Positions 14,561 to 32,179 of a stretch of 45,076 nt of DNA are shown here, piece after piece; position 1 is the stretch's first letter; each line of letters opens with the position of its first letter. The translations under genes and the position numbers were made by a program. The stretch spans positions 1 to 45,076 of the forward strand of contig DAHXON010000018.1 in NCBI GenBank assembly GCA_027364875.1, read 5' to 3'. The stretch comes from Chloroflexota bacterium. GTDB lineage: Bacteria > Chloroflexota > Limnocylindria > Limnocylindrales > CSP1-4. Below the pieces are notes generated by a model. It saw nothing but the letters and a program-made list of their open reading frames with translations. It searched no databases and was not told the DNA's origin.

Positions 14561-14566
14561 TCTGCC

Positions 14567-16982: not shown

Positions 16983-17048
16983 AAATGGATCGGCCGAATC
17001 GCCCGATTCGAGCACGAATCGGCGCCTCGCCGGAGGGGAAGACCCTAT

Positions 17049-17921
17049 ATGAGCGCCGCCTTCCGAACGATCGACCCCGGCAGCGCCATAGACGTCGATC
17101 CAGGCCGGCTTCCGATGACCGATCGCGCCTGCCTGCGGTTCATTGTCCGCTCCGGCGTAGTTACCTCAGGTCAGCTGGCCCAGCTCGTGTACGCCAAACC
17201 ACGCCACGCCCAGAAGCGCCTCCTCCAGCTCCATCGGGCCATGCTGCTCGACCGCGCTCCAATCGGTGACACGCCCCCCGGTCGAGCCGAATTCGCCTAC
17301 CGCCTCGGCCTCGTCGGTCATCAGCGTCTCGGCACCAGGCGAACGCCCGCCCCGCCGACGTACACGCGCCACATGCTCGACACCGTCGATGCCGTCATCG
17401 CGCTCAACCGGAGCGACGACCGCGAGCATCCCCCGGTTCAGCTCTGGCTCACCGATGCGATGACTGCCGATGTCCTCGGCCGCTTCGTTCGCCCGGACAG
17501 CATCGTCCTGGTCACGACCGAGGCCGGCTCGGCCGTGCTCGCGCTCGAGATCGACGAGGGCACCGAACACTCGCGGACTATCCGCGCCAAGCTGGCCGCC
17601 TACCGCCGCCCCCTCTCGACACGTCCCAACTGGCACCTGGTCGTCGTAGTCCCAACGCAGGCGCGCGCCGTCTGGATGGCGCGACAGGTGGGATCGCTCG
17701 ATCTCGGTCCGCGGACGTGGGTCGTCACACGTGCCGCTCTCGGCCGCGACTCGCTTGAGGTCGAACTCTTGGCCCTCATCCCCAGAACGTCGCCGCGGTC
17801 GATCCGGTCCCTGCTCAAGCCATCGGCGCGGCTACTGCCGGCGCCGGTCGGCTCGCGTGCCTGGCTCGAGCTGCTCGCGGCCGGCGTAGGTGAGCCGCAA
17901 GACGGGGCGCTGGCGCCCTAG
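17049..17921 (+). CDS. replication-relaxation family protein
   Basis: The 290-residue product matches the replication-relaxation family (Replic_Relax) found on plasmids and conjugative elements, thought to act in relaxation or replication of the element. The N-terminal part is a winged-helix region with the typical pattern: DRACLRFIVRSGVVTSGQLA (about 26-45), then HAQKRLLQLHRAMLLDRAPI, then EFAYRLGLVGHQRL. The rest contains VLALEIDEGTEHSRTIRAKL, a nuclease-like E-x-D stretch, then WHLVVVVPTQARAVWM. ATG 17049 has GGAGGGG about 10 bases upstream; an upstream in-frame start at 16947 would run through the 12-bp repeats and is less likely. It ends the conjugation operon and is convergent with the STAND gene. 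Confidence 0.8.
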   Translation: MSAAFRTIDPGSAIDVDPGRLPMTDRACLRFIVRSGVVTSGQLAQLVYAKPRHAQKRLLQLHRAMLLDRAPIGDTPPGRAEFAYRLGLVGHQRLGTRRTPAPPTYTRHMLDTVDAVIALNRSDDREHPPVQLWLTDAMTADVLGRFVRPDSIVLVTTEAGSAVLALEIDEGTEHSRTIRAKLAAYRRPLSTRPNWHLVVVVPTQARAVWMARQVGSLDLGPRTWVVTRAALGRDSLEVELLALIPRTSPRSIRSLLKPSARLLPAPVGSRAWLELLAAGVGEPQDGALAP

Positions 17922-17979: not shown

Positions 17980-20900
17980 CTACCGAGACAAGTCGAGCTG
18001 ACGGAGTCCCCAATGAGCACGCTCCTCGTCCGTCAGGGCTCGTGCGTGGGTGTCGCGGACTTGCATCTCCTTCCAGGGCAGGTGCCAGGTCCAGATTTCG
18101 CCTCCAGCCGTGCTAGTGACGATGGAGGAGCAGTCTGCTGCAAAATCCATTGAGACCACCCTTCCGGCGTGTGCCGCAGCAAGAAGCTGCCGTCGGGCGG
18201 CAAGGTCCCAGACTCTGACCCACTGACCACTTGCGCCCGCAGCGAACCTACCGTCTCTAGATAGCGCCACGGCATCCATGCCGGTCTCTTGCTTGTGCTG
18301 AAAGTTGGACGAGTACGGATCCTCATCGATGTGTAGGTCCAGCCTGAGAATGTGGAGGGTGCCATCGGCACATCCGACCGCCAGCGTCCGGCCATCACCG
18401 GCGAATGATGCGCACGTCCACTTGGGCGGCATCGAGGATGCCGAGCAGACTGTCTCGTGCGTCGTCACGTCCCAGGCGATGATGGGGCCGTCCGGTCCCA
18501 CGCTGACCTTGCAGACGGCGGCTAGCCTCTGCCCATCGGCGGAGAATCCAAGGTAGTCGATCATCCCTGAAGGGTGCCGAAATGACTCCGCCGACCTCTC
18601 GTCGGCCGTATTGCCCGTGATCACAAGGTCTCGGTACGCTATCGCATAGCGCTCCGCACCGAATGAGAGAGCCACGGCCCTAACGGTCTCACTATGAAGG
18701 TGCCACCTCCGAACGATGTCTCCGCGGGCCAACTCCTGTAGCACAACCTCGGCCTGCCTCCCAATCAAGGCCAGGCGCCCATCGCCCGAAACGTCGGTGA
18801 TACCGTCTGAACTCAGCAATGACGCTTGAGAGAAACTGTCTCGAGACGTGCTGCTGATCGCGAATTGCCGCCTCGCGCCATGGCCATCGGGGCCAAGAGT
18901 CGCGACGCGCCCATCTGACAAAGCAAGCACTCGCTCGATCTCACCGGGAGCTCTGAGCACCTCAGCGGCGCGTGCCTCCAACGGAAGCCACCGGATGTCG
19001 AGTTCCTTGTTGCTAGGTTCGAGTGGGCGCGTCCGGACATCAACGGCCATCAACCGGCCGTCCGGGCAGAACCCGGCCGCACTCGCGCGGACCCGCAACA
19101 AGGCCCTGCCGCTGATGATTTCGGAGACGACGCCAAGCCGATCACGGGATCGATCGGGTGGACACCAGCGAAGGCCATTCCTCACTGAAAAGACGGGGCT
19201 GATGATGGCAACGTCTGCGGGACAGCCAAGCTTCCACTGGTCAGAGTCCAGGTCCCACGTAGCAACAGTGGCCGGATCCTCCAATGAACTAGCGATCACG
19301 CGGCCACTGTCTTCCGTGAAAGCGATGTGCCAGTCGCCGTGGCCTGGCAACTCCTCTGTCCGTGCAACGGTGGTCCCGGTTAGCGCGTCCAGGATACGGA
19401 GACCCCCGGCTGGAACGAACGACAGCGACGAGCTCGTCGAACCAGATGGACGCTCGTACGGCACGGTGCTCCCCGCCGCGACTGCAATCCGCCGGCCGTC
19501 TGGCGAGAAGACTGCCCCTGCGGAGGGGATTCCCTTTGCTACTACTCGAACAACCTCGCTTCCGCTCCAGACCAGAAGCTCCCCTTGAGCGGAGACCGCC
19601 ATCGCGGTGTGACCGTTGAAGTAGAACGCGGTTGGGGGTCTGAGACCTGGTTGCTTAGTCTCCGACAGCTCCAGCTCCGACAGCTCCAGCTTCGTTAGGG
19701 CATCCCATATCTTGGCAATGCCGTCTTGGCACGCCAGAACATATCGACCATCCGGCGAAAACAGAAGCGATCGCCACCTACCGGACTGGGCGTGCCCGCT
19801 GGGTTCGCTGAAGCACTCCCGACCGCTTTGCGGATCCCACGCCCTGACCCAGTCCCTGGAGATCGCGGCACGAGCTGCACCTTCTGACGCAACTGGAGTC
19901 TCGGCAGTGAGCACGTACCTCGCACCGGGCGCCACCCAAGCCCGATCAGTACCTCGCGGGACCAAGAGTTCCTCCGCATCCCAATCCTGCCGCCACACCG
20001 CGTAGCGGAGCAGGTCATCGGCTTCCGGGCTCGAATGTTCATCCGTCAGCGCCCGTGCGAGCGCCAGAAGAAGGTCGGGGTGGACATGTCGGTTCTCGCG
20101 AACGATCTCTCGCGCGATCTCAGCCGAGGCGCGCCGTTCCGCATCGATTGAGCACTGAACGAAATGGCGGACAAGCGGGTCCACGTTGTCGGCTCGCGCC
20201 AGCATACGCCGTGTGGCTGCGTGCAGGAGGGAGCCACTTAGGAGCTCGACGGCCGATTGGCCTCGGCGGGTCCAGTACTTGGCCCGTCTGGTCAACTCAT
20301 CATCGAACTCAAGGTCCGTGCGATGCGCCACGATCGCATCACGCAACCGGCGCCAAGATTCCAGGAGCGTGTCGTGGGCGGGGACAACGGAGAAGCCGTC
20401 TACTGTGAGAAGCCTCGCTTCGACGAATTCATCGAGGACTCGTCTCTGGCTAGGAGAGAACTCCGAAAGGAGTCGAGAACGGCCCATCGCTGGGCGATCT
20501 GGCTCCACGGTGACCAGCTCGAGGAGGGACGCCAGTACTTCATCTTCGGTCGACTGCGCTTCAAGGAGACGGAGAAGAGCGGCCTCGGCGGCCACCTCGA
20601 TGGACATAGCAACGCGACCAGTGAGGTCATACATGACAGTGGTGATCTCGGTCGTGCCCGTCTTTCGGGCCACTTCCTGGAGACGTGCCATTGTGTCGGC
20701 CAAGAGAGGTAGAGCTGAGCCGCTCCCCGCGTCGTTCGCAATCCGGGCGGCCAGGCTAGGTTTGATGCGGAGGCCAGCCCTTCTCGCAGGCTCCGCGATG
20801 ACCTCAACGAGCTGATCACGCGCAAGCGCCAGCAGGGGAAAGCAGATGGCGTCGGATCCGATTCTGTCGAGGGCATCGCCAACGAACTCCTTGCGCACGA

Positions 20901-21762
20901 TGAACAACGCGGATGTCGGCGACCCCATCAAGCCTTCGCCCACACCCGTGAAACCATCCCTGGAAGCGAGAAGGCGCTCGGCCTGGTCGATAATCAACAA
21001 CAGGCGCTTTCCCTCGGCGACCGCCACGAGAGCCTCTTGGCGTATCTGCTCGACCGACTGGAGATCGGGAGCGATTGAGGCAGCTACAGCCCAATGGCCT
21101 TGGGCTTCCATGACGGGGACGATGCCGGCACCGATGAAAGATGACTTGCCAACGCCCGACGCTCCCGTTACGAGTATCCGGCCGCCTCGCGCCCAGGTCT
21201 CACCCAGCATACTCACCAGCCGGTCGATCTCATCGTCGCGTCCAACGAAGAAATGGCGGTCGGCAGCTCGGAAAGGCCGCAATCCTGGAAACGCGTCTCC
21301 CTCATCCTCATGCCGGGCGGAAGAAACGGCCGCCTCAATTCGTGCGAGGCCGGCCAGAGTCTCCCTTACTCCGAGGATTGAGGCCGTCGCCGCAAGGGCC
21401 GCATCCTTGCGGAGCTCGACTCCCAGTTCGTGGGCTAGGCTTGCGATGAAGGCCATCCCCGCATCAGCGGGGCCCTCACCAAAGAGCTTGGTCCATTGCT
21501 CGGTGCAGATCGGCCAACCCCGCGGGTCGGCTCCGACAGCCACTCCAAGAAGCTCGTCTGCCACCCCGGGCTTATGGATGAAGTCGATCTCGGCGCTGAG
21601 CTGAGCTGCACGCTCATGCCCATGTACAGCCCGACCTGCGGCTCTGCGAAGAGCCTTCCCCTCACTTGAGCCGAGCATGCCAGGGGCGATGCGGCCCTGA
21701 AGGGCAGAGAGCAAGGACGATGCGATCGCCTCGGCGAGTGCGCCGACGCCTAGGTTCAACAT
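17980..21762 (-). CDS. nSTAND1 NTPase with WD40-like propeller
   Basis: STAND NTPases are molecular switches that oligomerise on sensing a ligand and fire an effector; many bacterial ones are defence proteins. Read from ATG 21762 the product has 1260 residues. Residues 1-150 are an unassigned, mostly helical region. Then GLRPFRAADRHFFVGRDDEI opens the NTPase, with Walker A GASGVGKSSFIGAG (about 196-209), Walker B RLLLIIDQAERLL, and helical STAND arms with RVLDEFVEARLLT. The last 600 residues repeat the propeller signature (FSPDGRYVLACQDG, FSPDGRRIAVA, FSADGQRLAAV, SRDGRFAAGASG). GTG 21939 would add 59 basic residues without a ribosome site. It lies opposite the conjugation genes. An antiphage role is inference. 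Confidence 0.85.
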   Translation of the reverse strand: MLNLGVGALAEAIASSLLSALQGRIAPGMLGSSEGKALRRAAGRAVHGHERAAQLSAEIDFIHKPGVADELLGVAVGADPRGWPICTEQWTKLFGEGPADAGMAFIASLAHELGVELRKDAALAATASILGVRETLAGLARIEAAVSSARHEDEGDAFPGLRPFRAADRHFFVGRDDEIDRLVSMLGETWARGGRILVTGASGVGKSSFIGAGIVPVMEAQGHWAVAASIAPDLQSVEQIRQEALVAVAEGKRLLLIIDQAERLLASRDGFTGVGEGLMGSPTSALFIVRKEFVGDALDRIGSDAICFPLLALARDQLVEVIAEPARRAGLRIKPSLAARIANDAGSGSALPLLADTMARLQEVARKTGTTEITTVMYDLTGRVAMSIEVAAEAALLRLLEAQSTEDEVLASLLELVTVEPDRPAMGRSRLLSEFSPSQRRVLDEFVEARLLTVDGFSVVPAHDTLLESWRRLRDAIVAHRTDLEFDDELTRRAKYWTRRGQSAVELLSGSLLHAATRRMLARADNVDPLVRHFVQCSIDAERRASAEIAREIVRENRHVHPDLLLALARALTDEHSSPEADDLLRYAVWRQDWDAEELLVPRGTDRAWVAPGARYVLTAETPVASEGAARAAISRDWVRAWDPQSGRECFSEPSGHAQSGRWRSLLFSPDGRYVLACQDGIAKIWDALTKLELSELELSETKQPGLRPPTAFYFNGHTAMAVSAQGELLVWSGSEVVRVVAKGIPSAGAVFSPDGRRIAVAAGSTVPYERPSGSTSSSLSFVPAGGLRILDALTGTTVARTEELPGHGDWHIAFTEDSGRVIASSLEDPATVATWDLDSDQWKLGCPADVAIISPVFSVRNGLRWCPPDRSRDRLGVVSEIISGRALLRVRASAAGFCPDGRLMAVDVRTRPLEPSNKELDIRWLPLEARAAEVLRAPGEIERVLALSDGRVATLGPDGHGARRQFAISSTSRDSFSQASLLSSDGITDVSGDGRLALIGRQAEVVLQELARGDIVRRWHLHSETVRAVALSFGAERYAIAYRDLVITGNTADERSAESFRHPSGMIDYLGFSADGQRLAAVCKVSVGPDGPIIAWDVTTHETVCSASSMPPKWTCASFAGDGRTLAVGCADGTLHILRLDLHIDEDPYSSNFQHKQETGMDAVALSRDGRFAAGASGQWVRVWDLAARRQLLAAAHAGRVVSMDFAADCSSIVTSTAGGEIWTWHLPWKEMQVRDTHARALTDEERAHWGLRQLDLSR
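19661..19690. repeat. 15-bp tandem duplication inside the STAND gene
   Basis: TCCGACAGCTCCAGC occurs twice in tandem in frame. It duplicates the five residues LELSE on the minus strand in a loop between propeller blades, so it probably does not harm the fold. Confidence 0.8.
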
Positions 21763-22575
21763 GGGCGTCGTCCGGTCATTTCCCTCAGGCCCCCTCCCGG
21801 TTGTGCCAGCTGCACCCCGGGATGTTCTCACAAGCTTCACTAGCCTTCCATCGGCCAACGCAGAGGGGTTGGGCCGACGGTCCTTTCGGCTGAAGAATCC
21901 ACGCTCCCGCGCTTGCAGATTGACAGTCCGCCTACGCACCTGGAGGGCGGGGCTAGTTGGGCGGTCAATGGTACGCCGAAAGGTACGCAGAATGCCTTGA
22001 ATGTCCGGCTGGGTCGGCCTACCGTGATCTTCGGCGACCGGCCCAGAACGCGGAATGCGTATCCCCGCTAGAGACCGGTCGCCTCCACTCTCGGGAGCTT
22101 CCCGACGCGAGCTCCCGTGGCCAGAGCCGCATCAAGCGTCGGCGCCGGTTCCCTTTCGGGCTCTCGGCGATCTCGCACCTTACCAACCCGCATAGCGCTG
22201 CCAATCGCACGTAATCAACGAGCGACTGCGCGGCCACGGCCAGATGGGCGAACCCGACCGGAGCGTCCGGTCGAACGGTGACGACAAGCTCCGCACCGAA
22301 CGAACCGACGCTCGGCCGCCCTCGCGCATGCATGGGTGGTCAGCCGGTCGTTCGTTCGCAGCGATCCGTCAGCCGTTCGGCCCAACCACTCCGATCCGAT
22401 GCCCGCCTTTCAAGCAAAGGAGGCATGCCAGACAGGAGCATCCCAAACGCCACTCGCGCAACGGGACCGGGCCGATCGCCAGATGCGATCGCGTTAGCGG
22501 CCGGTGCGTAACCTGGCCGCCGTTCCCCGGTCCCTCCGACCCATTCGACAAGCTCGAACGCAGAAGGAGATATCG
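21763..22575. other. long upstream region between the STAND gene and the Ubl operon
   Basis: About 810 bases separate the chosen starts of two divergent genes. The open frames here are Arg/Pro/Ala-rich and lack ribosome sites, so I call no gene. It contains the direct repeat at 21968-21990. Promoters for both divergent units must lie here, but none is clear. Confidence 0.55.
21968..21990. repeat. right copy of the 23-bp direct repeat
   Basis: It has GGTACGC at 21970 and at 21982, matches 11424-11446 in 21 of 23 positions in the same orientation, and is likewise followed by CTTGA at an offset of 28. The two copies bracket 10.5 kb that contains the conjugation genes and the nSTAND1 gene. Confidence 0.75.
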
Positions 22576-22818
22576 ATGGAAACGACGGCAACAGAGGCAC
22601 AGGCGACGCGAGTCGTCTACGGCGTCAACGATCTCGAAGTCGATCTGGCGGGCCGACGCATTGCGGCGGTGTATCCGGTCCTCGAGCAGGTCCTGAACAT
22701 CCCCCGCGAGGCGAAGGTGACCGTCAACGGCGGTTCGGTCGACGACGACTACGTCGTCCGCCCGGGCGACGAGATCGAGTTCCTCAAGAACGCCGGCGTG
22801 AAGGGCCACCAGGCCTGA
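22576..22818 (+). CDS. ubiquitin-like (ThiS/MoaD/PRTRC-C-like) protein
   Basis: The 80-residue product has the beta-grasp pattern of ThiS/MoaD-like proteins: strand TRVVYGVNDLEV, a helix around AVYPVLEQVLNI, then KVTVNGGSV, then VVRPGDEIEFLKNAGVKG. The end resembles the GTKG end of PRTRC protein C (Prok_Ub). Mature Ubls end in Gly for activation by an E1; here Gly77 is followed by HQA, so three residues may need removal, perhaps by the JAB peptidase two genes downstream. ATG 22576 has a strong site, AGAAGGAG, 6 bases upstream, the best in this operon, consistent with a need for high abundance. E2, JAB and E1 genes follow. Sulfur-carrier function is an alternative, but no cofactor-synthesis gene is near. 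Confidence 0.82.
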   Translation: METTATEAQATRVVYGVNDLEVDLAGRRIAAVYPVLEQVLNIPREAKVTVNGGSVDDDYVVRPGDEIEFLKNAGVKGHQA

Positions 22819-22837
22819 GCAACGTCGGTGGGCGAGC

Positions 22838-22869
22838 GGCGGGAGTCCGGATCCATTCGGCCTCCCGCC
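22838..22869 (+). promoter_or_regulatory. intra-operon hairpin between Ubl and E2 genes
   Basis: GGCGGGAG at 22838-22845 pairs perfectly with CTCCCGCC at 22862-22869 around a 16-base loop. It sits in the 84-base gap after the Ubl gene. It could protect or partly terminate the short Ubl transcript so that more Ubl than enzyme is made; this is inference. Confidence 0.5.
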
Positions 22870-22902
22870 TCGGGCCCCGCTGAGGAAAGGAGATCAGACG
22901 CC

Positions 22903-23697
22903 ATGCCGCAGTTGCGCACCTACCTTCGCATCGAAGGCGAACTCGTCAGCCACGTGACCGAGAAGGTCGACCGCGAGGTCGAGCTATCGGCCCTTCTCGA
23001 CGAGGTCGTCCGAAACCAGCCGATCAGTACCGGTCGGCTTCCCGCCAACACCCGGTTTCTCGTCCGTCTCGGCGAGCGCGAGGCATACGTCCTCGAGCAG
23101 CCGCCGATGCGGCGGGTCATCGAGTTCCACGCGAGTCAACGTTCCGGGTCCGAGCCGAACCAATATCGACTCGCGCTCCCATTCGTGGTGTTCGTCGTGG
23201 GCGTTGAGGCCGGCCAGATCACAAGCCTCGCCAACTTCTTCCGAACGAGCCCGATCCATTCGATCGACGATCAGCTCAACCACTCGTGCCTGCCGAACAC
23301 GTCGGACGACGGCGTCGTCTGCCTAGGGTCGGTGCGAGTGTCGGGCCGATCGATCGGCGAGCGAATCGACGCTCTGATCGGCGCCTTCTGGGCGAGCCGC
23401 TTCAACCAGGATCTCCATCGCCATTCGCTGCCGTTCTCCGGCGGCTTTCGGAGTTGGGCGTCCCGGAGTCGAAGCGACCCGCTCGCGGCACTGTCGCTTC
23501 AATACGACCCGACGTGGCGGACCATCCGCCAGGTCGCCGCCTACATGGTCGGAGCAAGAGAGACCGACATCCCCGACTCGGGAGTCGCCGAGCCCGACAT
23601 CTCCGAGACCGACGTCGTGACGCCGATCCCGGAGCCAGACGTTCCTGCGCCGGTTCCGGAAGCCGAGGGAGGCGACGCCGATGCGTCAGCTGCCTGA
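22903..23697 (+). CDS. E2-like conjugating protein (PRTRC-B / Prok-E2_D-like)
   Basis: The 264-residue product has a UBC-like core. After strands RRVIEFHA and YRLALPFVVFVVGV it reads CLPNTSDDGVVCLGSVRV, which mirrors the active-site stretch of eukaryotic E2s (HPN, then G-x-ICL). Cys140 is the expected thioester residue; Cys129 is a second candidate. This pattern and the setting fit PRTRC system protein B. The C-terminal 45 residues are a disordered Pro/Glu/Asp/Val-rich tail. GAGGAAAGGAG lies before ATG 22903, which is preferred to the frame's earlier start at 22828, whose extra residues overlie the hairpin. The next gene overlaps its end by 17 bases. Confidence 0.82.
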   Translation: MPQLRTYLRIEGELVSHVTEKVDREVELSALLDEVVRNQPISTGRLPANTRFLVRLGEREAYVLEQPPMRRVIEFHASQRSGSEPNQYRLALPFVVFVVGVEAGQITSLANFFRTSPIHSIDDQLNHSCLPNTSDDGVVCLGSVRVSGRSIGERIDALIGAFWASRFNQDLHRHSLPFSGGFRSWASRSRSDPLAALSLQYDPTWRTIRQVAAYMVGARETDIPDSGVAEPDISETDVVTPIPEPDVPAPVPEAEGGDADASAA

Positions 23698-23959
23698 GGC
23701 GTTTCGGTCAGTTTCGGCTCTTGAGCCACGCGATCTCTGGGAGACGATTGGGCCACGACTCGTGGACTCGGTCTACGAGCCCTCGATCGATCGGCTTGAA
23801 GTCCAGGCACTCACGATCGCGGTCGCGACGCTTCGGGCGTCGGGCCGGCGAATGCGTGACGCACTCGTGTACGACACGCGTTCGTTCCACCGACTCGAAG
23901 CTGCGGTCTTCCGGATCCCGGAGCGGATCGTGGAGGCGAGCAATGTTCCCGATCGTTGA
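23681..23959 (+). CDS. unknown 92-residue protein between E2 and JAB genes
   Basis: The product is all-helical in appearance (PRDLWETIGPRLVDSVYEPS, LEVQALTIAVATLRASGRRM, FHRLEAAVFRIPERIVEASN), without Cys, signal peptide or membrane helix. I do not recognise a family. Its ATG lies 17 bases inside the end of the E2 gene and its stop lies 17 bases inside the JAB gene, so it is co-translated with both, and selection must act on overlapping frames. It has the size of a small adaptor, scaffold or E3-like helper for the ubiquitin-like pathway; that is only inference from position. Confidence 0.7.
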   Translation: MRQLPEAFRSVSALEPRDLWETIGPRLVDSVYEPSIDRLEVQALTIAVATLRASGRRMRDALVYDTRSFHRLEAAVFRIPERIVEASNVPDR

Positions 23960-24758
23960 AGCCGGTTCGCCGGCACTGGGAGGGACCTCGCTGCCGGCGT
24001 TCGTCGTGGCCAGAGACGGGCTGTATCTGCGCAAGCGGAGCCTGCTCGGACTCTCCCAGACGAAGGTCGACCGAGTCGCCCATCTTCCGCGCGGCAAGGC
24101 CTTTCTCGACTACCGGCTCCCGAAGCTCCCCGCGGAGCTCGTGGGCCAGGTCGTCGGGTTCTTCCGAGCGGTCTACCAGCGCCAACAAACGGAGGCGATC
24201 GTCCTGCTCCTGTGGCAGGCCGACCATTTCGAACTGCTGGTCCCACTGCAATCGGCGACGTCGGTCTCGGTCCGGCACAAGCTCGATCCCTCGAGCGTGC
24301 CGACCGGCTCCCGACTAGTCGGCACGATCCACTCGCACGGCGCCTTCTCGGCGTTTGCGAGTGCGACCGATGAGGATGACGAGGCCGACCTCGACGGACT
24401 CCACGTCGTGGTCGGAGACCTCCTCCGGCGGAAGCCATCGTTCTCGGCGGCCCTCGTCGTCGACGGCCATCGCTTCACGGCCCGCCTGAGCCAGGTGCTC
24501 GAACGGCCGGGAGAGGTAGTGCCGCCGCCCGACGAGTGGCTCTCCCGAGTGAAGGTCGCTCCGCCGCCTCGGATCAAGCCGTGGAAGAAGTACCAGCCTC
24601 TCAAGTTGCTGCCCGGCAAGATCGAGCATCCAGTCACGTCGCCAGATCGGCGACGGCTGGACGAACTCCTCGACGCCGCGGCAAGCATTGCCGAGAAGCT
24701 CGGCTACCGGCTCCGCACCGATCTCGTTCCTTCCGAGGAAGGAGCGGCAGATGCCTAG
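23943..24758 (+). CDS. JAB/JAMM metallopeptidase (PRTRC-A-like)
   Basis: JAB domains are zinc isopeptidases that mature Ubl precursors or remove Ubls from targets. In this 271-residue product the motif is complete: Glu84 in QQTEAIVLLLW, then GTIHSHGAFSAFASATDEDD with His130, His132, Ser140 and Asp143, spaced as HxH-x7-S-x2-D. The N-terminal 80 residues form a separate beta-rich domain (FVVARDGLYLRKRSLLG), as in PRTRC protein A. The C-terminal 80 residues are basic and Pro-rich and then helical. ATG 23943 overlaps the preceding gene by 17 bases; the frame continues open to 23286 but overlies the E2 coding region, so that part is not coding. The E1 gene starts 8 bases before its end. Confidence 0.88.
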   Translation: MFPIVEAGSPALGGTSLPAFVVARDGLYLRKRSLLGLSQTKVDRVAHLPRGKAFLDYRLPKLPAELVGQVVGFFRAVYQRQQTEAIVLLLWQADHFELLVPLQSATSVSVRHKLDPSSVPTGSRLVGTIHSHGAFSAFASATDEDDEADLDGLHVVVGDLLRRKPSFSAALVVDGHRFTARLSQVLERPGEVVPPPDEWLSRVKVAPPPRIKPWKKYQPLKLLPGKIEHPVTSPDRRRLDELLDAAASIAEKLGYRLRTDLVPSEEGAADA

Positions 24759-25446
24759 TCGGTTTGTCCTGGTTGGTTGTGGCGGCATCGGCTCACAGCT
24801 GCTGGCGCCACTGGTCCGGTGTCTCCGCAACAACTCCCGCGAAGCCTTGCTCGTGCTCGTCGACGGCGACGTCTTCGAGCCAGGCAACGCGCTTCGCCAG
24901 GAGTTCCCGGCATCGGCCCTCGGCCTCAACAAGGCCGAGGCCCTCGCCAGTTGGGTCCGTGAAGCAGGCCTCGCCTGCCAGGCGGTCCCGCTCTATCTAG
25001 ACGAGGCGAACGTCGGCGATGTCGTCCGAGAGGGCGATCTCGTCCTTCTCGCGGTCGACAACCATCGAACGCGAGCGCTCGTCGATCGCCACATTTGCAG
25101 CCTAGCCGAGGCCACGCTCATCAGCGGCGGCAACGACGAGATAGACGGCAACGTCCAGCTCGTCCGCCGGCGTAACGGCGTCAGCCTCGACGGCACCCTC
25201 GTCGAGATCCATCCCGAGATCGCCACTGCGACCGACGGTCCGGCCAGCGGCGAAGGATGCACGGCACGAGTTGCCGAGCGTCCCCAACTGCTCGTCACGA
25301 ACCTCATGGTCGCCTCCGCGATGCTCAACTGCCTCTGGTCCATCTGCGAAACAGGCAGCGCCCCGTATAGCGAGGTCTACCTCGACGTCGTCCAGAACGC
25401 GGCCCGCCCGCGTCGCTGGTTCCGGGCCGAGGTGGACGCAGCCTAA
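24751..25446 (+). CDS. ThiF-type E1 activating enzyme
   Basis: E1/ThiF proteins adenylate the C-terminal Gly of a Ubl. The 231-residue product is a full minimal domain: VLVGCGGIGSQ (GCGGIGS at 9-15) for ATP, LVDGDVFEPGNALRQEFP with the conserved Asp, Asn and Arg-Gln of the family, LLAVDNHRTRALVD with the second Asp and Arg, and GEGCTARVAERPQLLVTN, where Cys170 is the likely thioester residue. The zinc-binding Cys pairs of MoeB are absent, as in PRTRC ThiF proteins. The ATG lies inside the JAB stop region (8-base overlap), so the two are coupled. A long hairpin follows before the AAA ATPase gene. Confidence 0.88.
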   Translation: MPSRFVLVGCGGIGSQLLAPLVRCLRNNSREALLVLVDGDVFEPGNALRQEFPASALGLNKAEALASWVREAGLACQAVPLYLDEANVGDVVREGDLVLLAVDNHRTRALVDRHICSLAEATLISGGNDEIDGNVQLVRRRNGVSLDGTLVEIHPEIATATDGPASGEGCTARVAERPQLLVTNLMVASAMLNCLWSICETGSAPYSEVYLDVVQNAARPRRWFRAEVDAA

Positions 25447-25475
25447 CGGGAGCGGGTTGTCACAGGTGCACATGC

Positions 25476-25504
25476 GATCGGCCGGGCGAAGAACCCGGCC
25501 GATC
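25476..25504 (+). terminator. strong GC-rich hairpin after the E1 gene
   Basis: GATCGGCCGGG pairs perfectly with CCCGGCCGATC (11-bp stem, 7-base loop) in the 75-base gap between E1 and AAA genes. There is no T-run, so it may be a weak terminator, a processing site or a protein target. It marks a boundary between the Ubl enzymes and the ATPase-recombinase pair. Confidence 0.55.
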
Positions 25505-25521
25505 CAGTTCAGGAGTTGTTC

Positions 25522-26727
25522 GTGTCCCATCCGCAGTCGGCCGTTCTCGCGAACCCCTTCCGCGCCGGCAATGGCGTGCGACCGCCGTACCTGGCCGGGC
25601 GCGATGGACTGCTCGACGAGTTCGGGCGCTTCCTCATCGAACCTCATCCACCTCACGTCAACTGGTCGCTGACCGGGCTTCGCGGTACGGGCAAGACGGT
25701 GCTTCTCAACGAGTTCGCCACGCGAGCGGAGCGTGCGGGATGGGTGTGCGGCACCCGAGAGCTCGGCGATCGCCATCGCGACCCTGAAGTCCTGGCCCAA
25801 GCGATCGCGTCAGACAGCGATGCGCTCATCCGACGGTGCAACGCTCTCGCGGGCATCGGGCAGACGATCGAGCGCAGCTTCCGGTTCTTCCGCCCTCGGC
25901 GTCTAACCATTGGGGAACTGGGTGTCGAACTGGCATATGAAGGAGTGAGTTCAGATCCCGCGGAGGCGATCGGCGCAGCTCTTTCGGCAGTTGCCCAGGC
26001 TGCTGACGAGGCTCATCGTCCAGGCGCCCTACTCCTCTACGACGAAGCCCATCTGCTTTCGGACGATCGGTCACGCAAGGAGTTCCCGCTCTCGGCCTTG
26101 CTCGCCGGGCTAGGCCAAGCTCAACGTTCCAGCCAGTCCGTCAGAGTCGTCCTTTGCGGACTGCCAACCCTGACGCTCAATCTCAAGCGTGCCAAGACGT
26201 ATGCCGAGCGCATGTTCCGCCAGGTCGTCGTCGGTCATCTCGAGCGAGGCGACGCCTGGGATGCCATCGGCATTCCGCTGGCCGGCAGTGGGCGCAGCTT
26301 CTCCCTCGATCTCGTGGGGGATATCGTCGAGGCGACGGACGGCTACCCATACTTCCTCCAGTTCTTCGGCGCGTTTCTGTGCAGCCGCATTGGGCATGCC
26401 GAGGTCAATCGAGCCGACTACGCCGCGCTCGAACCGGTGCTCCTGCATGAACTGGACCTGGCCTTCTTCGAGGACCGATACGCCGTGGCCGGCCCTGCGG
26501 GCCAGCAGGTGCTCGAAGCGATGGCTCGTCACGCGGGCACGGTGGGCGCCCTCGAACTGCGGCGTGCCCTCCCCGCAAACGCGAACGTCGACACCGTCAT
26601 CTTCCGACTCGTCGAGCGCGGGCTCATCTATCGACCATCGCGAGGCCGGTATGACTTCGCCTTGCCCCTCTTCCGCGCATACCTGCGGCGGAGGGCGAAT
26701 CTTACAGAACTAGCGTGGGGGCGCTAG
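25522..26727 (+). CDS. AAA ATPase, ORC/Cdc6-like, next to the Ubl cassette
   Basis: The 401-residue product is a single AAA-type ATPase. PPYLAGRDGLLDEFGRFL leads into Walker A SLTGLRGTGKTVLLNEF (GLRGTGKT at 52-59), Walker B ALLLYDEAHLLSDD (about 169-182), and a sensor stretch VRVVLCGLPTL. A C-terminal winged-helix-like region follows (VLEAMARHAGTVGALELRRA, VDTVIFRLVERGLIYRPSRG). This is the layout of AAA_16/ORC-like proteins that bind DNA or partner proteins. GTG 25522 has AGGAG 6 bases upstream; TTG 25516 would leave no spacing. The recombinase gene begins 2 bases after its stop. It may remodel conjugated targets or serve mobility of the element; the context cannot decide. Confidence 0.82.
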   Translation: MSHPQSAVLANPFRAGNGVRPPYLAGRDGLLDEFGRFLIEPHPPHVNWSLTGLRGTGKTVLLNEFATRAERAGWVCGTRELGDRHRDPEVLAQAIASDSDALIRRCNALAGIGQTIERSFRFFRPRRLTIGELGVELAYEGVSSDPAEAIGAALSAVAQAADEAHRPGALLLYDEAHLLSDDRSRKEFPLSALLAGLGQAQRSSQSVRVVLCGLPTLTLNLKRAKTYAERMFRQVVVGHLERGDAWDAIGIPLAGSGRSFSLDLVGDIVEATDGYPYFLQFFGAFLCSRIGHAEVNRADYAALEPVLLHELDLAFFEDRYAVAGPAGQQVLEAMARHAGTVGALELRRALPANANVDTVIFRLVERGLIYRPSRGRYDFALPLFRAYLRRRANLTELAWGR

Positions 26728-26729
26728 AA

Positions 26730-27689
26730 ATGGCACGACCCGCTCGACTGATCGCGGAGGTCCGGCCCGATCCAGGCCTGGAGGCGCTACGGCTCACCGA
26801 CCTCGTCGCCGAATACTGCGTCGCCCTGAAGGTGGCCGGCCGAAGCCCAAGGACAATCCGCTGGTACCGCGATCACCTAGCGGAGTTCATCGGCTTCCTC
26901 GAACGTTCCGGCGACGCAGCAACGTTGGCCGACCTGCGACCACCAGTCGTCCGCCGCTGGCTCCTCGCCCTCACTGCTCGTCGTGACCGGCCGCTGGCCC
27001 CGAGCAGCGTCGCCGGTCGTGTCCGAACGCTGCGCGCCTTTGGCTCTTGGCTTGCTCGCGAGTTCGATCTCTCCGACAACCCGCTCCGCGGGGTGCCGGT
27101 CCCGCGCGTACCCGAACAGCTCGTCCGCAGCCTTCGCGAGACCGAGATCCGCGCCCTGCTCGCGGCGATCGACGGCTCTGAGCAGCCTGAGCGTGATCGC
27201 GCGCTCGTCCTCCTTCTGCTCGACACGGGGATCCGCCTCTCCGAGGCTGCCGGTCTCAGCGTGCATGACCTCGATCTCATCGAGGGCCGATGCCGAGTCA
27301 TCGGCAAGGGATCGAAGGAACGGGTCGTGCCGGTAGGGCGGAAGGCGCGAAAGGTCATCCGCCAGATGCTCGTCCGTCGCGGCAACCCAAAGGGGCCCGA
27401 CCCGCTATTCGTAGGAGCGGACGGTCGTCCGCTCGCGCCGCACGGTTTCCAGCAGGTGCTTCGGCGGCTGTCTGCGCGAGCCGGCCTCACAGTCCGATCG
27501 TCGCCTCACGTCCTGCGCCACACATTTGCCCGCTCATTCCTTCAGAACGGCGGCGACGTGTTCAGCTTGCAGCGCATCCTCGGCCACAGCCCGTCGTCGC
27601 TCCAGGTCACCCGCCGCTACGTCGATCTCCTCGACGATGACCTGCGCGAAATCCACCGCAACGCCTCGCCAGTCGACCGGATGGTCTAG
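26730..27689 (+). CDS. tyrosine recombinase (XerC/D-like integrase)
   Basis: The 319-residue product has the SAM-like core-binding domain at about 20-115 (SPRTIRWYRDHLAEF) and a catalytic domain with all expected residues: Arg169 in DTGIRLSEAAGL, Lys in GKGSKERVVPVG (193 or 196), His260-x2-Arg263 in PHVLRHTFARSF, His286 in LGHS, and the nucleophile Tyr297 in RRYVDL. It can cut and rejoin DNA at specific sites. ATG 26730 lies 2 bases after the AAA gene; GTG 26715, overlapping it, is an alternative. It is clearly related to the second recombinase at 30993-32012. A hairpin with short T-run follows at 27760. Confidence 0.92.
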   Translation: MARPARLIAEVRPDPGLEALRLTDLVAEYCVALKVAGRSPRTIRWYRDHLAEFIGFLERSGDAATLADLRPPVVRRWLLALTARRDRPLAPSSVAGRVRTLRAFGSWLAREFDLSDNPLRGVPVPRVPEQLVRSLRETEIRALLAAIDGSEQPERDRALVLLLLDTGIRLSEAAGLSVHDLDLIEGRCRVIGKGSKERVVPVGRKARKVIRQMLVRRGNPKGPDPLFVGADGRPLAPHGFQQVLRRLSARAGLTVRSSPHVLRHTFARSFLQNGGDVFSLQRILGHSPSSLQVTRRYVDLLDDDLREIHRNASPVDRMV

Positions 27690-27835: not shown

Positions 27836-30800
27836 ATGCCCGAACTAGGGCGGCCAACCGCATCAGCAGGAAATGCCTATCACGATGTGACCACGGCCCT
27901 GCGGCTAGTCGAAATGGTTCAGGACGGACAGATCGAGTATGTCTGGCCGGAAGCAGTTGCTCCTGTGGACGATATCAAGGTGGCCTTCGTCTCTTCGGAG
28001 CGGTTCGAGCAGGTCAAGGAGCACGCGCCCGCTTCGTCGTGGACCGCCGCTGGTCTCCAGTCCGAGGGCATTCTTGACCAGTTCGCTCGTCAGCATGCTC
28101 TGGCTCCTGAGGCGCAATTGGTACTTGTCACCGCGTCCGATGCCAGGAATATCCGCGAGCTGACCACACGCGCCGCCAGCGCACTGCGGAATAGCCCGGG
28201 GAATCCGGCAGAAGCCGTCGCGGAGTGGAGATCGCGGCTAAGTGCTGAGCTTGACGCCGTCGCCAGCGACATCGGAGCGAGGCTCGGCAAGTCCGATGAG
28301 GACACGATCGTCTTACTGGCCACAGTCGTGGTCCAGGACAACCAGGGGTCGCTCGATCAGCGTCGCGACCAACTGAACTCGGCTCTGAACGGACTGGTGA
28401 AGGATGTCGCCAGGGGCGCGACAGCTCTGGAGGACTTGGCGCGCGACTGTGGCATGCGACGAGACAAGATTCGACGCTCAGACGTCCGGCACGCGCTCGC
28501 GGAGGCGGAAGCTGGACCCCTGACGGGAGCCTGGGCCGCACACGTTGACCTTGAATCATACGCCGCCCAGCTCGACGAGCGAGAGCGGCTCCTCGACCCA
28601 GCCGCCCTGCCAGAACTAGGTCGAACCCTGGCGCTTGGGGGATCGCTAACGGAAATCGAGACGGTCACCCGTCCAACCTTGCTCACGGGCGGCCATGGCG
28701 CCGGCAAGACACACATGTCGCTCCGCATTGCGATTGGGCACCTCACAAAAGGGCGTCCGGGACTCCACGTCATGCTCGGCGCTTGGGCCACCGGGCTGGA
28801 CGATCTGATCCACGGCGAGCTTGCATTCGCAGCTGGGCGGCCCGTCACGGATAGCGATGTGTCGTTGTTCCTTGCCAATGAAGGGTCGTTCCTCATTCTC
28901 GACTCACTGGATGAGGTCGCTCCTGAGCTCCGACAAAGCGCCGTTCGCGAAGTCCACCAGCTTGCCCGATCTCACCCAAACTTGCGTGTCCTCGTGACTG
29001 CAAGACCTGGGGCCGCGGCGCGCCAGCTCGGTTGGCCGGAGGTCGAGCTTCAACCCCTGACCGACGAACAGATCGCCGGCATCCTCGGTAGTTCTGTCCA
29101 CTCACTCCCGGCGGGCGTGCAAGCACTTGCACGTAATCCCCTGATGCTCGGGCTCCTTAGGACCCATGGAACGACGAATGTTTCGGAACCCGAGCTACTG
29201 GACGGACTGCTCGCATCGATGATCGATCGGGAGGCGCAGCGACCGGGACGGCTAGACGCGGTCACGGCGACCCGGATCGCGGAAGAGGTCGCATTCCGGT
29301 GGCTGTTGGGCTATCGGACCGTTCTTGACGACCATGCGTTTCGAGGCCTTGCCAGGGATGTCGCGCACCATCTCGCGGAGCACGATCGCATTGAGCTCGA
29401 TGCCCGTCAGATAGAGGCTTCGCTCCTCGAGATGGGCCTGGTCGTGCGAGTGGGCAGCCAGCTTCGCCCACTTCACAGGACGCTTCTTGATCAGCTGGCA
29501 GCGCGGCGCTTCTCGGACCCGGGGTCGGTCGAAGTCGGCGTTGTCACCCCATCATTGCGGGAAGCATTTGCCAGGTATATAGGCACGCAACTCACCGTCG
29601 AAGACAGGCCGAGATCTATGTTGGAGGCGAACCTCCTCGACATCGAGCTGCTCGCACGTTGTGCCAGGCTAGTGCGGTCAGACGTGGCAGCCCCCTCCGA
29701 CGCCAACGCGTTTGCCCGGGACTACCTGCGGGCGGTGCGGACGCTGACCGAGGGGCCATTGAGTGGTGCCGCCCTCATCGCGCCGGCCGTCCATATAAAG
29801 ATCGACCACGCTCTTACCTGGATCTCGGAATCCGAAGTGGGGGGAGCCAGCGGGGATCGAGTGGAGGTCGTCGAGAATTCCGGCCGAATGTACACGGTCG
29901 GACCAGATGGTATTGCCGTCCCCAACATCACAAGATTCTCGGGTCTCGGCTTTGAGGGGCGCATCATCTCGAACCCTATGCCCCAGCTCGTTGCCTACGA
30001 GCGGGTCCGTGACGCGCTGCAGGATCGCCTGAAGAACGAGCTCCTGCCCGACGAGGGGCCGCAAATCACCTATGAGCGCCTAGCCGCGATACCGAAGCAG
30101 CTCGCCGACCTAGCCAGTGCGTTCGGCTCCAATCCGCAGGCGGGCTACGCGATGGCCGACCTAGTCGGCATTACTCCACTGGAGCTTCTGAGCAAGTTCG
30201 CGACCTTTGCCGCAAGCATCATCGGGCATCAGCCGACCGAATCCGATGTCGCCGGCCTCCTGCTCGGATTCGATTTCCAGGCGAAGAGCTGGTTCGCCAT
30301 CACCTCGGCTGAACCATCCGCGCAGGATCCGCGCAATCCGTCGGGAGGAAGGCGCGGACTCGTTCTTCACGGCAGCCCGATATCCATGCTCGTTGGGGAG
30401 GCGATGCGCCTCGGTATTGCCAATCTTCCGCTTCACCCCCTTGGCGTGCTACCCGAAGGCACGAACGACCCGGTCTTGAGCCTGCCGGTGAGGATCTGGG
30501 AGCTTCATGGGGATGATCTCCGGCTATTCGTCCTGCGGCAGGAGCAGGGAATCCAAGCAGCCATCCGCCATCTGGTAACACACAACCTTGAAGGCGTCGC
30601 GAGCAGACTAAGAACCTATGGCTCGATGCCCTGGCGGGTGCGTGTGCACGTAGAAAACAAGACGACGGGGGGCCAGATCGACATGGACTACGCGAGGCAC
30701 GTCGATTTCCGAACCGACGTCGAGGGCGTGGAAGTTGAGCTCGGCATTCCAGCCGGCTGGGATTACGCCAACGGCTCGTCCAGAGGCGATCTGCGGTTCA

Positions 30801-30901
30801 GCTATGGCAGCGTGCTCAAGGAAGCCTACCGGGAGGTTTCGAACGACCTCAATGCCCTGCTTTCTGGCCGTCAGGCGCTCGGCGCCGAGGACCTTGGTTA
30901 G
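27836..30901 (+). CDS. NACHT-type STAND ATPase with Cap4/DUF4297-like nuclease domain
   Basis: The 1021-residue product starts with a domain like Cap4/DUF4297 double-strand DNA nucleases: GNAYHDVTTALRLVEMVQDG, then VDDIKVAF (Asp45-Asp46), then FEQVKEHA (Gln59-Val-Lys61), which is the D-(x)n-(E/Q)xK site; then LVLVTASDARN. Residues of about 280-430 are a NACHT ATPase: Walker A LLTGGHGAGKTHMS (285-292), Walker B GSFLILDSLDEV (about 350-361), sensor RVLVTARPG, and VELQPLTDEQIAGIL. The remaining 590 residues are a long helical and mixed sensor region without recognisable repeats. This is the architecture of Avs-type antiviral STAND proteins. AGAGGGG lies about 12 bases before the ATG. It stands alone between two recombinase genes. 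Confidence 0.83.
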   Translation: MPELGRPTASAGNAYHDVTTALRLVEMVQDGQIEYVWPEAVAPVDDIKVAFVSSERFEQVKEHAPASSWTAAGLQSEGILDQFARQHALAPEAQLVLVTASDARNIRELTTRAASALRNSPGNPAEAVAEWRSRLSAELDAVASDIGARLGKSDEDTIVLLATVVVQDNQGSLDQRRDQLNSALNGLVKDVARGATALEDLARDCGMRRDKIRRSDVRHALAEAEAGPLTGAWAAHVDLESYAAQLDERERLLDPAALPELGRTLALGGSLTEIETVTRPTLLTGGHGAGKTHMSLRIAIGHLTKGRPGLHVMLGAWATGLDDLIHGELAFAAGRPVTDSDVSLFLANEGSFLILDSLDEVAPELRQSAVREVHQLARSHPNLRVLVTARPGAAARQLGWPEVELQPLTDEQIAGILGSSVHSLPAGVQALARNPLMLGLLRTHGTTNVSEPELLDGLLASMIDREAQRPGRLDAVTATRIAEEVAFRWLLGYRTVLDDHAFRGLARDVAHHLAEHDRIELDARQIEASLLEMGLVVRVGSQLRPLHRTLLDQLAARRFSDPGSVEVGVVTPSLREAFARYIGTQLTVEDRPRSMLEANLLDIELLARCARLVRSDVAAPSDANAFARDYLRAVRTLTEGPLSGAALIAPAVHIKIDHALTWISESEVGGASGDRVEVVENSGRMYTVGPDGIAVPNITRFSGLGFEGRIISNPMPQLVAYERVRDALQDRLKNELLPDEGPQITYERLAAIPKQLADLASAFGSNPQAGYAMADLVGITPLELLSKFATFAASIIGHQPTESDVAGLLLGFDFQAKSWFAITSAEPSAQDPRNPSGGRRGLVLHGSPISMLVGEAMRLGIANLPLHPLGVLPEGTNDPVLSLPVRIWELHGDDLRLFVLRQEQGIQAAIRHLVTHNLEGVASRLRTYGSMPWRVRVHVENKTTGGQIDMDYARHVDFRTDVEGVEVELGIPAGWDYANGSSRGDLRFSYGSVLKEAYREVSNDLNALLSGRQALGAEDLG

Positions 30902-30992: not shown

Positions 30993-32012
30993 TCATCTCA
31001 CGGGTCTCGCGCGTCCCCCCAGAAGATGGTCGGCCGGCGACGCTAGGTCATGACGACTGGCGACGTCCGTGTCCGCCAAGGCCACGTAGCGTCGGACCAT
31101 GTCCAGGCTCGTATGGCCCAGGATCCGCTGAAGCGAGAACACATCCCCGCCATTGACGAGGTAGTTGCGGGCGAAGGTGTGGCGGAAGGTGTGCGGCGAG
31201 CAGCGCCGCTGCAACCCGGCCCGCGCCTTGAGGCGCTTGAGGATCTGCTGGATGCCATGGAAGGTGAGCCCGGTACCTCCTTCCGCGAGGAAGACCGGCT
31301 CGTCGGGTTCGCCTCGGCCTCGTTCGGCGAGATAGCGACCGATCGCCCGACGCGAGCTCGTGCCGACGGGGACGAGGCGCTCTTTCGAACCCTTACCCAT
31401 CACCTTGATCGAGCCATCGCCACGGAGGTCGCGAAAGCAGATCCCGGCGGCCTCGGAAACCCGGATCCCGGTGTCGAGGAGGAGCAACAGGATCGCCTGA
31501 TCACGGGTGCCCGCTAGGGCGAGCAACCCTCGTAGCTCCTCGTCGGTCAACGGCTCAACCAGCTTGCGCGGCACCCGTGGCTTAGCCAGCCGGCGAATGG
31601 CGTCGGCGCCGGCGAGCTCTTCGGCCACGAGCCAGTTGCCGAACACGTGGAGACAGCGGACATAGCCCGCGACGCTCACCGGCGCCAGGGTAGATCGAAG
31701 CTCGACGAGCCAGGCCCGCCAGGCCGGGGCGTCGATCTCGTCGAGGATCGTCCGAGCACCAAAGCGCGCAACGGCTCGATCGAGGATGTCGCGATACCAG
31801 CGGACCGTTCGCGGCGACAGGCCCTCGGCGGTCTTCGCGTCGCAGAACAATTCGACCGCGGCTGCGAGCCGAGCTTCTTCGCGCGGTTTGCGGGTCGGCC
31901 GGGTCGGCGGAGTCAGATGCCCGTTTCGGGGGCGGACGCCATCAGATGCCCGTCTTGTTTGGTCGGGGGAGTCAGAAGCCCACGGATCGTAGGTATCAGA
32001 TGCTCGCGACAT
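30993..32012 (-). CDS. tyrosine recombinase beside tRNA-Arg (island integrase)
   Basis: The 339-residue product resembles the first recombinase closely in its motifs: SPRTVRWYRDIL, Arg184 in DTGIRVSEAAGI, Lys in GKGSKERLVPVG, His274-x2-Arg277 in PHTFRHTFARNY, His300 in LGHT, and Tyr309 in RRYVAL. It has an extra 45-residue basic N-terminal arm with repeated ASD triplets. ATG 32012 has a perfect GGAGGT 6 bases upstream. The gene begins 95 bases from the 3' end of tRNA-Arg, the classic place for an integrase whose element inserted into the tRNA 3' end. It most likely moves the island to its left. Confidence 0.92.
   Translation of the reverse strand: MSRASDTYDPWASDSPDQTRRASDGVRPRNGHLTPPTRPTRKPREEARLAAAVELFCDAKTAEGLSPRTVRWYRDILDRAVARFGARTILDEIDAPAWRAWLVELRSTLAPVSVAGYVRCLHVFGNWLVAEELAGADAIRRLAKPRVPRKLVEPLTDEELRGLLALAGTRDQAILLLLLDTGIRVSEAAGICFRDLRGDGSIKVMGKGSKERLVPVGTSSRRAIGRYLAERGRGEPDEPVFLAEGGTGLTFHGIQQILKRLKARAGLQRRCSPHTFRHTFARNYLVNGGDVFSLQRILGHTSLDMVRRYVALADTDVASRHDLASPADHLLGGRARPVR
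31913..32007. repeat. four direct repeats of TCAGATGCCC type at the integrase 5' end
   Basis: TCAGATGCCCGT at 31913 and 31942, TCAGAAGCCCAC at 31972 and TCAGATGCTCGC at 31996 are spaced 29, 30 and 24 bases apart. A fifth match, TCAGATGCTCTA, lies inside the tRNA-Arg gene at 32149, in its anticodon arm. They lie within the coding region of the integrase N-terminal arm and could be arm-type binding sites. Confidence 0.55.
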
Positions 32013-32106
32013 AATCTTACCTCCATGGGCACCGCCCACGAGGCCGTCCTACGCACAAGATCTAGTACCGCCGGCGCCACTCAACCACAACATGTTGTGG
32101 TTTTGG

Positions 32107-32179
32107 CGCGCCCGGAGGGATTCGAACCCCCGACCCTCTGATCCGAAGTCAGATGCTCTATCCACTGAGCTACGGGCGC
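32107..32179 (-). tRNA. tRNA-Arg (anticodon TCG)
   Basis: On the minus strand the sequence begins GCGCCCGTAGCTCAGTGGAT and folds as a full cloverleaf: acceptor stem GCGCCCG/CGGGCGC with discriminator G, D arm AGCTCAGTGGATAGAGC, anticodon loop CTTCGGA giving anticodon TCG, and T arm with GGTTCGAATCC. No CCA is encoded. Its 3' end faces the integrase gene, so it is the probable attachment site of the island. I found no second copy of the tRNA 3' end elsewhere in the window. Confidence 0.97.

Follow-up and report, generated by a model that had tools for sequence, protein, structure and literature searches.

A predicted ubiquitin-like conjugation cassette in the backbone of a putative integrative conjugative element family of Chloroflexota

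We analyzed a 45,076-nt stretch of DNA, referred to as the window, from a Chloroflexota bacterium of the Limnocylindria (GenBank assembly GCA_027364875.1, contig DAHXON010000018.1). At positions 22576-27689 it carries seven genes, all on the same strand, encoding a ubiquitin-like protein (Ubl), an E2-like protein, a small protein designated X, a JAB/JAMM peptidase, a minimal ThiF-type E1, an AAA ATPase and a tyrosine recombinase (Int1). Compared among relatives, the cassette appears to be part of the backbone of an element family and not exchangeable cargo, and the element is apparently an integrative conjugative element (ICE). With moderate confidence, we propose that the cassette is a reversible Ubl-conjugation module acting in the DNA processing or establishment of the element. 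The original prediction for this DNA had read the first five genes as a complete Ubl conjugation and removal cycle, and the coordinates, Pfam matches and gene order bear this out, the Ubl being the weakest part of the five-gene reading.

The Ubl gene (22576..22818, +) encodes 80 aa with the C terminus AGVKG-HQA and is followed by E2 (22903..23697, +), X (23681..23959, +; 92 aa), JAB (23943..24758, +) and E1 (24751..25446, +), with overlaps of 17 nt for E2/X, 17 nt for X/JAB and 8 nt for JAB/E1. The hidden Markov model searches proposed with the original prediction placed three of the proteins above the curated Pfam cut-offs, namely E2 with Prok-E2_D (E 9.8e-8), JAB with Prok-JAB (1e-6) and E1 with ThiF (1.4e-17); the E2 assignment was also supported by alignment and hhalign, and those of JAB and E1 by NCBIfam and alignment. 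The models PRTRC_A, PRTRC_B and PRTRC_ThiF matched below their cut-offs. The Pfam matches of the Ubl were all under the cut-off (ThiS, E 0.0046; S4, 0.035; Ub-Mut7C, 0.045). The presence of an AAA ATPase, called ORC-like in the original prediction, and of an integrase directly after the cassette (25522-27689) was likewise confirmed. The AAA gene (25522..26727, +) barely exceeds the curated Pfam cut-offs for AAA_16 and AAA_22 and matches phrog_6841, and a phmmer search against the PDB at E 0.1 found no relative. Int1 (26730..27689, +), which starts 2 nt past the AAA gene, matches Phage_integrase above the curated cut-off (Pfam E 2.6e-37) and was also assigned by NCBIfam.

The predicted active sites, E2 Cys140, a complete JAMM motif and E1 Cys170, are present and conserved in relatives. 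The E2 motif of the window is LPNTSDDGVVCLG, including Cys140, and corresponds to the family motif LPNT(S/N)DDG-VCLG, in which the Cys is kept in 25/25 aligned rows; a downstream HPLPF-like block is also conserved, with His174 invariant. In the JAB protein, the JAMM motif consists of H130-x-H132-x7-S140-x2-D143 plus E84. The exact HxH-x7-S-x2-D spacing occurs in 23 of 26 rows, the others being L039 and L044, which are frame-broken there, and the distant L043, which is shorter by one residue. The peptidase also has an extra N-terminal region, where R30, R75 and W91 are each kept in 25 of 26 rows. The E1, which has no rhodanese domain, keeps Cys170 in 25 of 26 rows, and the remaining row (L042) is cut short. 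Judged by these residues, the conjugation chemistry appears well supported.

The end of the Ubl is conserved in a similar manner: AGVKG, including Gly77, is invariant (20/20 rows, with further support from a set of 16 rows) and is followed by a variable tail of one or three residues. Proteins at the Ubl position of other systems often stop at this point. The small protein of the Pirellulales locus L043 stops exactly at AIKG (read by eye), that of a Bacillus plasmid ends KKG-stop, and among six PRTRC_C proteins the end is KG in three and NG in one, while the other two continue past KG. Because AGVKG is invariant with a variable tail and other systems stop at (K/N)G, Gly77 is probably the working end of the Ubl, with the tail trimmed by JAB. 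As a separate observation, an Alicyclobacillus plasmid protein annotated Mov34/MPN/PAD-1 (L068:7922-8863) appears, by eye, to have a Ubl fused before JAB via ...HKKG....

The low-confidence structure model of the Ubl (predicted local distance difference test score, pLDDT, 65.5) suggests a beta-grasp-like order of elements, and its weak fold hits, none of them significant, include the beta-grasp MTH1743, NEDD8, TtuB and MoaD. X is a new protein, lying between E2 and JAB. It matched no family in Pfam, NCBIfam, PADLOC or PHROG and had no convincing relative in a PDB search; its low-confidence model (pLDDT 58) is all-helical. X is present in 23 of the 25 loci searched besides the window, missing from the frame-broken L039 and L044, with a length of about 85-92 aa in relatives. 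Comparison of the cassette with that of genome G011 (83-91% identical) gave omega values of 0.14 for E2, 0.17 for JAB (189 of 271 codons), 0.30 for the fast-evolving X and 0.47 for Ubl, the last based on 75 codons. With omega of the transfer genes at 0.15-0.23, E2, JAB and X are inside the range or slightly higher, and E2, JAB, X and Ubl are under selective constraint. A viral origin of the cassette was considered and rejected: Ubl, E2, X, JAB and E1 have no PHROG match at E 0.01, and a scan of viral contigs confirmed no E1 relative.

The neighborhood survey proposed with the original prediction linked the core genes firmly. Ubl, E2, JAB and E1 are adjacent, ordered, on one strand and uninterrupted in all 28 loci that hold at least two of them, 22 of which hold all four; a 29th locus, L028, has E1 alone at a contig end. 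The linkage is therefore not due to chance. The AAA gene is found after E1 in most loci that extend far enough, and Int1 is variable. At the same place in relatives, the AAA protein occurs in two diverged versions (27-31% or about 55-75% identity), with a 40% fragment in L044. The unit of 22576-27689 was only part of what is conserved; the backbone also spans 11490-17921, which contains the conjugation genes described below, and a leader of about 480 nt located 5' of Ubl.

The non-coding leader (22100..22575, +) was examined in an alignment of 15 sequences, in which the copy of the window lacks some blocks. Hairpins occur locally within it, conservation is especially strong around 22176-22208, and it is perhaps a promoter region, a regulatory RNA or a transfer origin. 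A small open reading frame within the leader was rejected since its reading frame is not kept, and so was a structured RNA, given a covariation term of only -0.16 and two-sided change in 10 of 90 predicted pairs. Rfam gave no credible family for the leader.

Gene content differs among elements in three slots: one from the relaxase to Ubl, one separating E1 from AAA, and one from Int1 to the tRNA. The cargo of sister elements includes HNH, PPDK, a sigma factor, a beta-lactamase-family protein, GGDEF, histidine kinases, ABC, TIR, DNA methylase, HATPase, DUF6791-ThiF with or without DUF6527, and a peptidase-HTH gene (L032). The cargo is thus mixed, with defence-like genes among signalling and metabolic ones. 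PADLOC analysis of 32 proteins gave models including E1-E2, capP, pAgo and PD-Lambda-3; the E1-E2 plus capP cargo probably represents Bub, for which operons with CapH/CapP control are described in PMC13373217. The recombinase on the tRNA side is also swapped, being of the Int2 type, another tyrosine type or a serine type, and the cassette persists. Because cargo and recombinases vary and the cassette stays, we read the cassette as backbone. ThiF-type cargo was observed at L032:7555-8730, L044:15483-17087 and L047:13901-15208, as DUF6791-ThiF(-DUF6527) or another ThiF, with the peptidase-HTH gene of L032 close by, and may be another ubiquitin-like system in addition to the core cassette.

The association with conjugation genes was evaluated using the VirB4 of the element. 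Among 177 genomes of the class, VirB4 was detected in 11 at a threshold of 1e-100, with up to six candidates per genome scored, and 10 of these also hold E1. The eleventh genome, G011, has VirB4, M23, VirD4, the relaxase, 7 kb of further DNA, Ubl-E2-X and a JAB truncated where the contig stops, all on one contig, so the cassette or part of it is found in 11/11 VirB4 genomes (hypergeometric 2e-12, relatedness not corrected). All nine elements that have VirB4 and the cassette on a single contig show the order VirB4-M23-VirD4-(relaxase)-cargo-Ubl-E2-JAB on the same strand; the stricter search used for this count missed the relaxase in one element and Ubl in one. Copy numbers of VirB4 and E1 run in parallel (5/4 in G066, 4/5 in G083 and 3/4 in G122), and the divergence of E2 tracks that of VirB4 (Mantel rho 0.71, p 0.006, n=9); JAB tracks E2 only moderately (rho 0.39). 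Of 20 VirB4 places, nine share a contig with the cassette and five are on contigs outside the comparison. In G024, the sole E1 contig begins just 5' of Ubl, and the VirB4 and E1 contigs may be neighbors.

The E1 itself is distributed patchily. It was detected in 10 of 61 genomes at 1e-3, the window's own included, with strong full-length matches in five others besides the window's, and in 19 of the 177 class genomes at 1e-20, own included, some copies being only pieces. A scan of genome contigs gave 23 loci, comprising 20 from Chloroflexi, two from Acidimicrobiia and one from Pirellulales; because the Acidimicrobiia elements resemble the Chloroflexi ones, these two loci are possibly binning errors. 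Three metagenome-assembled genomes carry three or four cassette copies each. This patchy, multi-copy distribution is the pattern of a mobile element. The Pirellulales locus (L043:4162-7003) holds a distant set read as Ubl-E2-JAB-E1 without X, in which JAB and E1 were located by tblastn and Ubl and E2 by eye.

The genes surrounding the cassette indicate the type of element. Upstream, domain scans and comparison with relatives identified a VirB4/TraG-like ATPase of the conjugation apparatus (11490..13631, +), a protein with transglycosylase SLT and peptidase M23 domains (13628..14560, +), a TrwB/HerA-like coupling protein with a probable VirD4 role (14567..16918, +) and a Replic_Relax protein that is a putative relaxase (16947..17921, +); the same set is also found upstream of the cassette in sister loci. 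Downstream, a second tyrosine recombinase, Int2 (30993..32039, -; Pfam and relatives), lies at the right end of the element, next to a tRNA-Arg(TCG) (32104..32179, -) found by tRNA search, whose 3' end points toward the element and which is the presumed attachment site. Because VirB4, SLT/M23, VirD4 and the relaxase lie upstream and a recombinase and tRNA-Arg downstream, the element is apparently a self-transferring ICE, and the ICE gene set in the window is complete if Replic_Relax is taken as the relaxase (VirB4, coupling protein, relaxase and integrase). Two cargo genes flank the cassette region and were assigned by Pfam, an nSTAND1 NTPase with WD40 repeats (17980..21939, -) and a NACHT-like NTPase (27836..30901, +; NACHT E 5e-5, just under the cut-off). 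Further left, at 5367-10365 (-), a HATPase_c_3 protein and an Mrr-type nuclease/helicase fusion have a defence-like appearance and are perhaps further cargo of the same element.

In 13 elements a tRNA was observed on the right, in every case (13/13) with its 3' end toward the element. The tRNAs are tRNA-Arg (window, L027 and L031), Gln (L026, L032, L044, G062 and G108), Pro (L030, L033 and L047), Glu (L020) and Thr (L040); L022, L035, L036, L037 and L046 had no tRNA in the 4-11 kb past AAA. In G004 and G019, the chromosomal DNA past the tRNA-Arg of the window is kept as far as the 3' end of the tRNA (to within 5 nt), where the conservation stops, so we place the right boundary of the element at this 3' end. 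No left attachment repeat was found in the sister contigs G059:C2 or G026:C5 over the stretches covered. Contig C131 of the window's own genome (G000) carries a 48-nt copy of the 3' half of the tRNA-Arg at one side of another island (about 46234-104681), which has a right end like that of the window, an Int2 80% identical and no E1, and whose ends abut insertion-sequence-like DNA (by eye). In L031, an intact tRNA-Arg (5743-5818) is accompanied by a partial copy of its 5' half (9334-9374) located 3.5 kb beyond, which suggests a tandem insertion at one site.

Among the known systems compared, the window set fits type 6d best. Iyer, Burroughs and Aravind (2006; PMC1779556) predicted mobile operons of the Ubl/E2/JAB/E1 kind, and Table 1, row 6d, of that paper lists a small beta-grasp Ubl with a conserved terminal Gly, a helical protein with conserved charged residues, E2, JAB and E1; the type 6d E2 is given a Cys and a downstream His, and the JAB an N-terminal domain with a conserved Arg and Trp. 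Likewise, the E2 of the window has the invariant Cys140 with His174 downstream and not the classical His, and the Ubl is standalone with a conserved Gly, followed in the window family by a short tail. JAB combines JAMM with an N-terminal extension that may or may not correspond to the published JAB-N, the E1 lacks a rhodanese domain, the neighbor X is helical in its pLDDT 58 model, and the set is mobile. The window set differs from type 6d in that X is small (about 85-92 aa) and located between E2 and JAB, and in being tied to a single conjugative-element family with AAA and an integrase. Row 6d itself does not name Chloroflexota.

The original prediction had matched the cassette to the core of PRTRC cassettes (NCBIfam TIGR03735, TIGR03736, TIGR03737 and relatives), which are known from large plasmids and some ICEs; a relation is retained, but a match of the cores is not supported. 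Where all are annotated, the PRTRC order is C(Ubl)-B(E2)-A(JAB)-ThiF, the same as in the window. The E2 aligns with PRTRC_B through the active-site Cys (hhalign probability 97.1, E 6.7e-11), and PRTRC_B, PRTRC_A and PRTRC_ThiF are the best or sole NCBIfam partners of E2, JAB and E1, with significant matches. Their cut-offs were missed by far, with 42.2 vs 101.8 bits for PRTRC_A, 26.5 vs 131.45 for PRTRC_B and 58.2 vs 144.75 for PRTRC_ThiF. The Ubl had no NCBIfam PRTRC match and an hhalign probability of 0.5% against PRTRC_C, so PRTRC membership was ruled out on the missed cut-offs together with this unlike Ubl. In addition, X is not similar to PRTRC F, and the window has no F. As the original prediction had also stated, no ParB-like gene is visible: the ParB domain is absent from the 29 window proteins scanned with Pfam, a scan that covers small open reading frames partly and does not reach the left part of the element, which lies outside the window. 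Among the 40 matches listed of 63 plasmid records matching E1, identity was about 31% or less, and most were annotated as PRTRC ThiF. PRTRC seems to represent this operon type on plasmids, as a branch of it.

An ICE inserted in tRNA-Arg of Acidithiobacillus caldus is listed as carrying PRTRC genes (PMC3826726), and in Bacteroides thetaiotaomicron such genes are reported close to those of a conjugative transposon (PMC10434189). These reports support a general link between this operon type and conjugative elements, and for the same reason they make the case of the window less new. In an incomplete survey of the literature, we found neither experiments on what PRTRC does nor a description of such a cassette for Chloroflexota elements; what is new here is a variant that differs from PRTRC by its Ubl, its X, no F and no visible ParB. 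Bil, Bub and the E1-E2-JAB of CBASS share the Ubl conjugation chemistry, partly with a protease, but PADLOC gave no match for Ubl, E2 or JAB, and a CD-NTase was absent among the window proteins scanned with Pfam. By the tests made, Bil and Bub are not the family of the window cassette. Compared with ICEs carrying Replic_Relax, the element shares VirB4, a coupling protein, a relaxase-like protein, a recombinase and a tRNA, and its backbone adds the Ubl cassette, AAA and a second recombinase.

From the conserved residues, a reaction cycle can be proposed. JAB would trim the one or three residues beyond AGVKG of the Ubl, after which E1 would adenylate Gly77 and take the Ubl onto Cys170. E2 would receive the Ubl on Cys140 and hand it on to a target, which X might, speculatively, choose or present, and JAB would detach the Ubl again. 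Since the module goes with the conjugation genes and with no particular cargo, its most likely target is a DNA-processing, excision or replication protein of the element, or a host protein blocking its establishment, and the tagging would serve as a switch in the life cycle of the element.

The original prediction had left the choice between a defence system and a device for the replication or transfer of the element itself. The fixed co-occurrence with conjugation genes and the variable cargo favor the second, and neither is proven. Defence is the main rival, in which a Bil-like anti-phage or anti-competitor system would put the Ubl on a protein of the invader and be fixed because it is useful to the element; we regard it as doubtful. 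In its favor, the bacterial Ubl systems of known role that are covered in PMC12687455 and PMC10097602 serve mainly in phage defence, the E1 matches the PADLOC E1-E2 and BilD models along part of its length, and the cargo of these elements contains defence-like genes besides signalling and metabolic ones. However, the cassette is in every VirB4 genome found while the recognizable defence genes vary by element, Ubl, E2, X and JAB have no PADLOC match up to E 1, and L032 and L044 have a separate DUF6791-ThiF gene as cargo beside the cassette. Defence genes carried as cargo should be gained and lost like the other cargo, and this main argument, one from position and not from function, suggests that the cassette has a part in the life cycle of the element itself.

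Three further explanations carry less weight. A stability or addiction device, retaining the element in the cell by modifying and de-modifying host proteins, would account for opposed activities within one operon and for mobility, was suggested for such mobile operons in PMC1779556, and would suit the PRTRC genes filed under plasmid partitioning by annotation only, without test, in PMC7466150 and PMC4465626. We consider it unlikely, since no toxin-like part was recognized and several genomes hold two or more coexisting copies. It also seems improbable that the tagging acts specifically on the adjoining AAA and Int1 to regulate excision and so control the integrated state. Both genes lie 3' of E1 in the same orientation, with 2 nt between them, and in most loci that extend far enough AAA comes after E1, but several loci lack Int1 or have it replaced, AAA was not seen in L030 and L047 over at least 6 kb, and cargo may part E1 from AAA (L020 and L040). 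A sulfur-carrier pathway of the ThiS/MoaD type borne by the element is very improbable and was rejected. The ThiF domain of E1 and the weak ThiS match of the Ubl would fit such a pathway, but the E2 has an invariant Cys in 25/25 rows, the E1 has no rhodanese domain, the Ubl terminus is KG plus a tail and not GG, the ThiF/MoeB equivalog cut-offs were missed by a wide margin, and the neighbors scanned include no sulfur or cofactor gene. The original prediction had named a sulfur-carrier assignment without an E2 match as the outcome that would count against it, and the searches gave an E2 match.

Several results weigh against our proposal of a module serving the element. The Ubl model is weak, its fold search gave no significant match, and the best PDB match of the Ubl family profile is ribosomal protein S4 (E 0.006), with no beta-grasp modifier matched. 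Nine of the 19 E1 genomes have no VirB4 match at 1e-100, and six further VirB4 contigs have no cassette in their span, including G122:C70, which extends 12 kb past the relaxase. The tree-like evidence is mixed, in that divergence is uncorrelated between VirB4 and JAB (rho 0.07), and the correlation between relaxase and E2 is slight (rho 0.22, p 0.21). The left end or attachment repeat was not found in the window, which begins inside the element. The precedent of phage defence among bacterial Ubl systems of known role points the other way.

In summary, the fixed position in the backbone suggests that the element uses protein tagging for its own life cycle. All genomes in which this VirB4 was found carry the cassette, whole or in part, so the question of defence or element biology becomes testable, and the exchangeable ubiquitin-like cargo gene of sister elements provides an internal contrast to the core cassette. 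More tentatively, and with less confidence than in the module itself, Ubl conjugation may be a standing part of conjugation in this family, in which tagging of a protein of the relaxosome or of replication, or of a host gatekeeper protein, reversed by the JAMM peptidase, would decide between staying integrated and transfer, and X would be a new E3-like subunit that selects the target.

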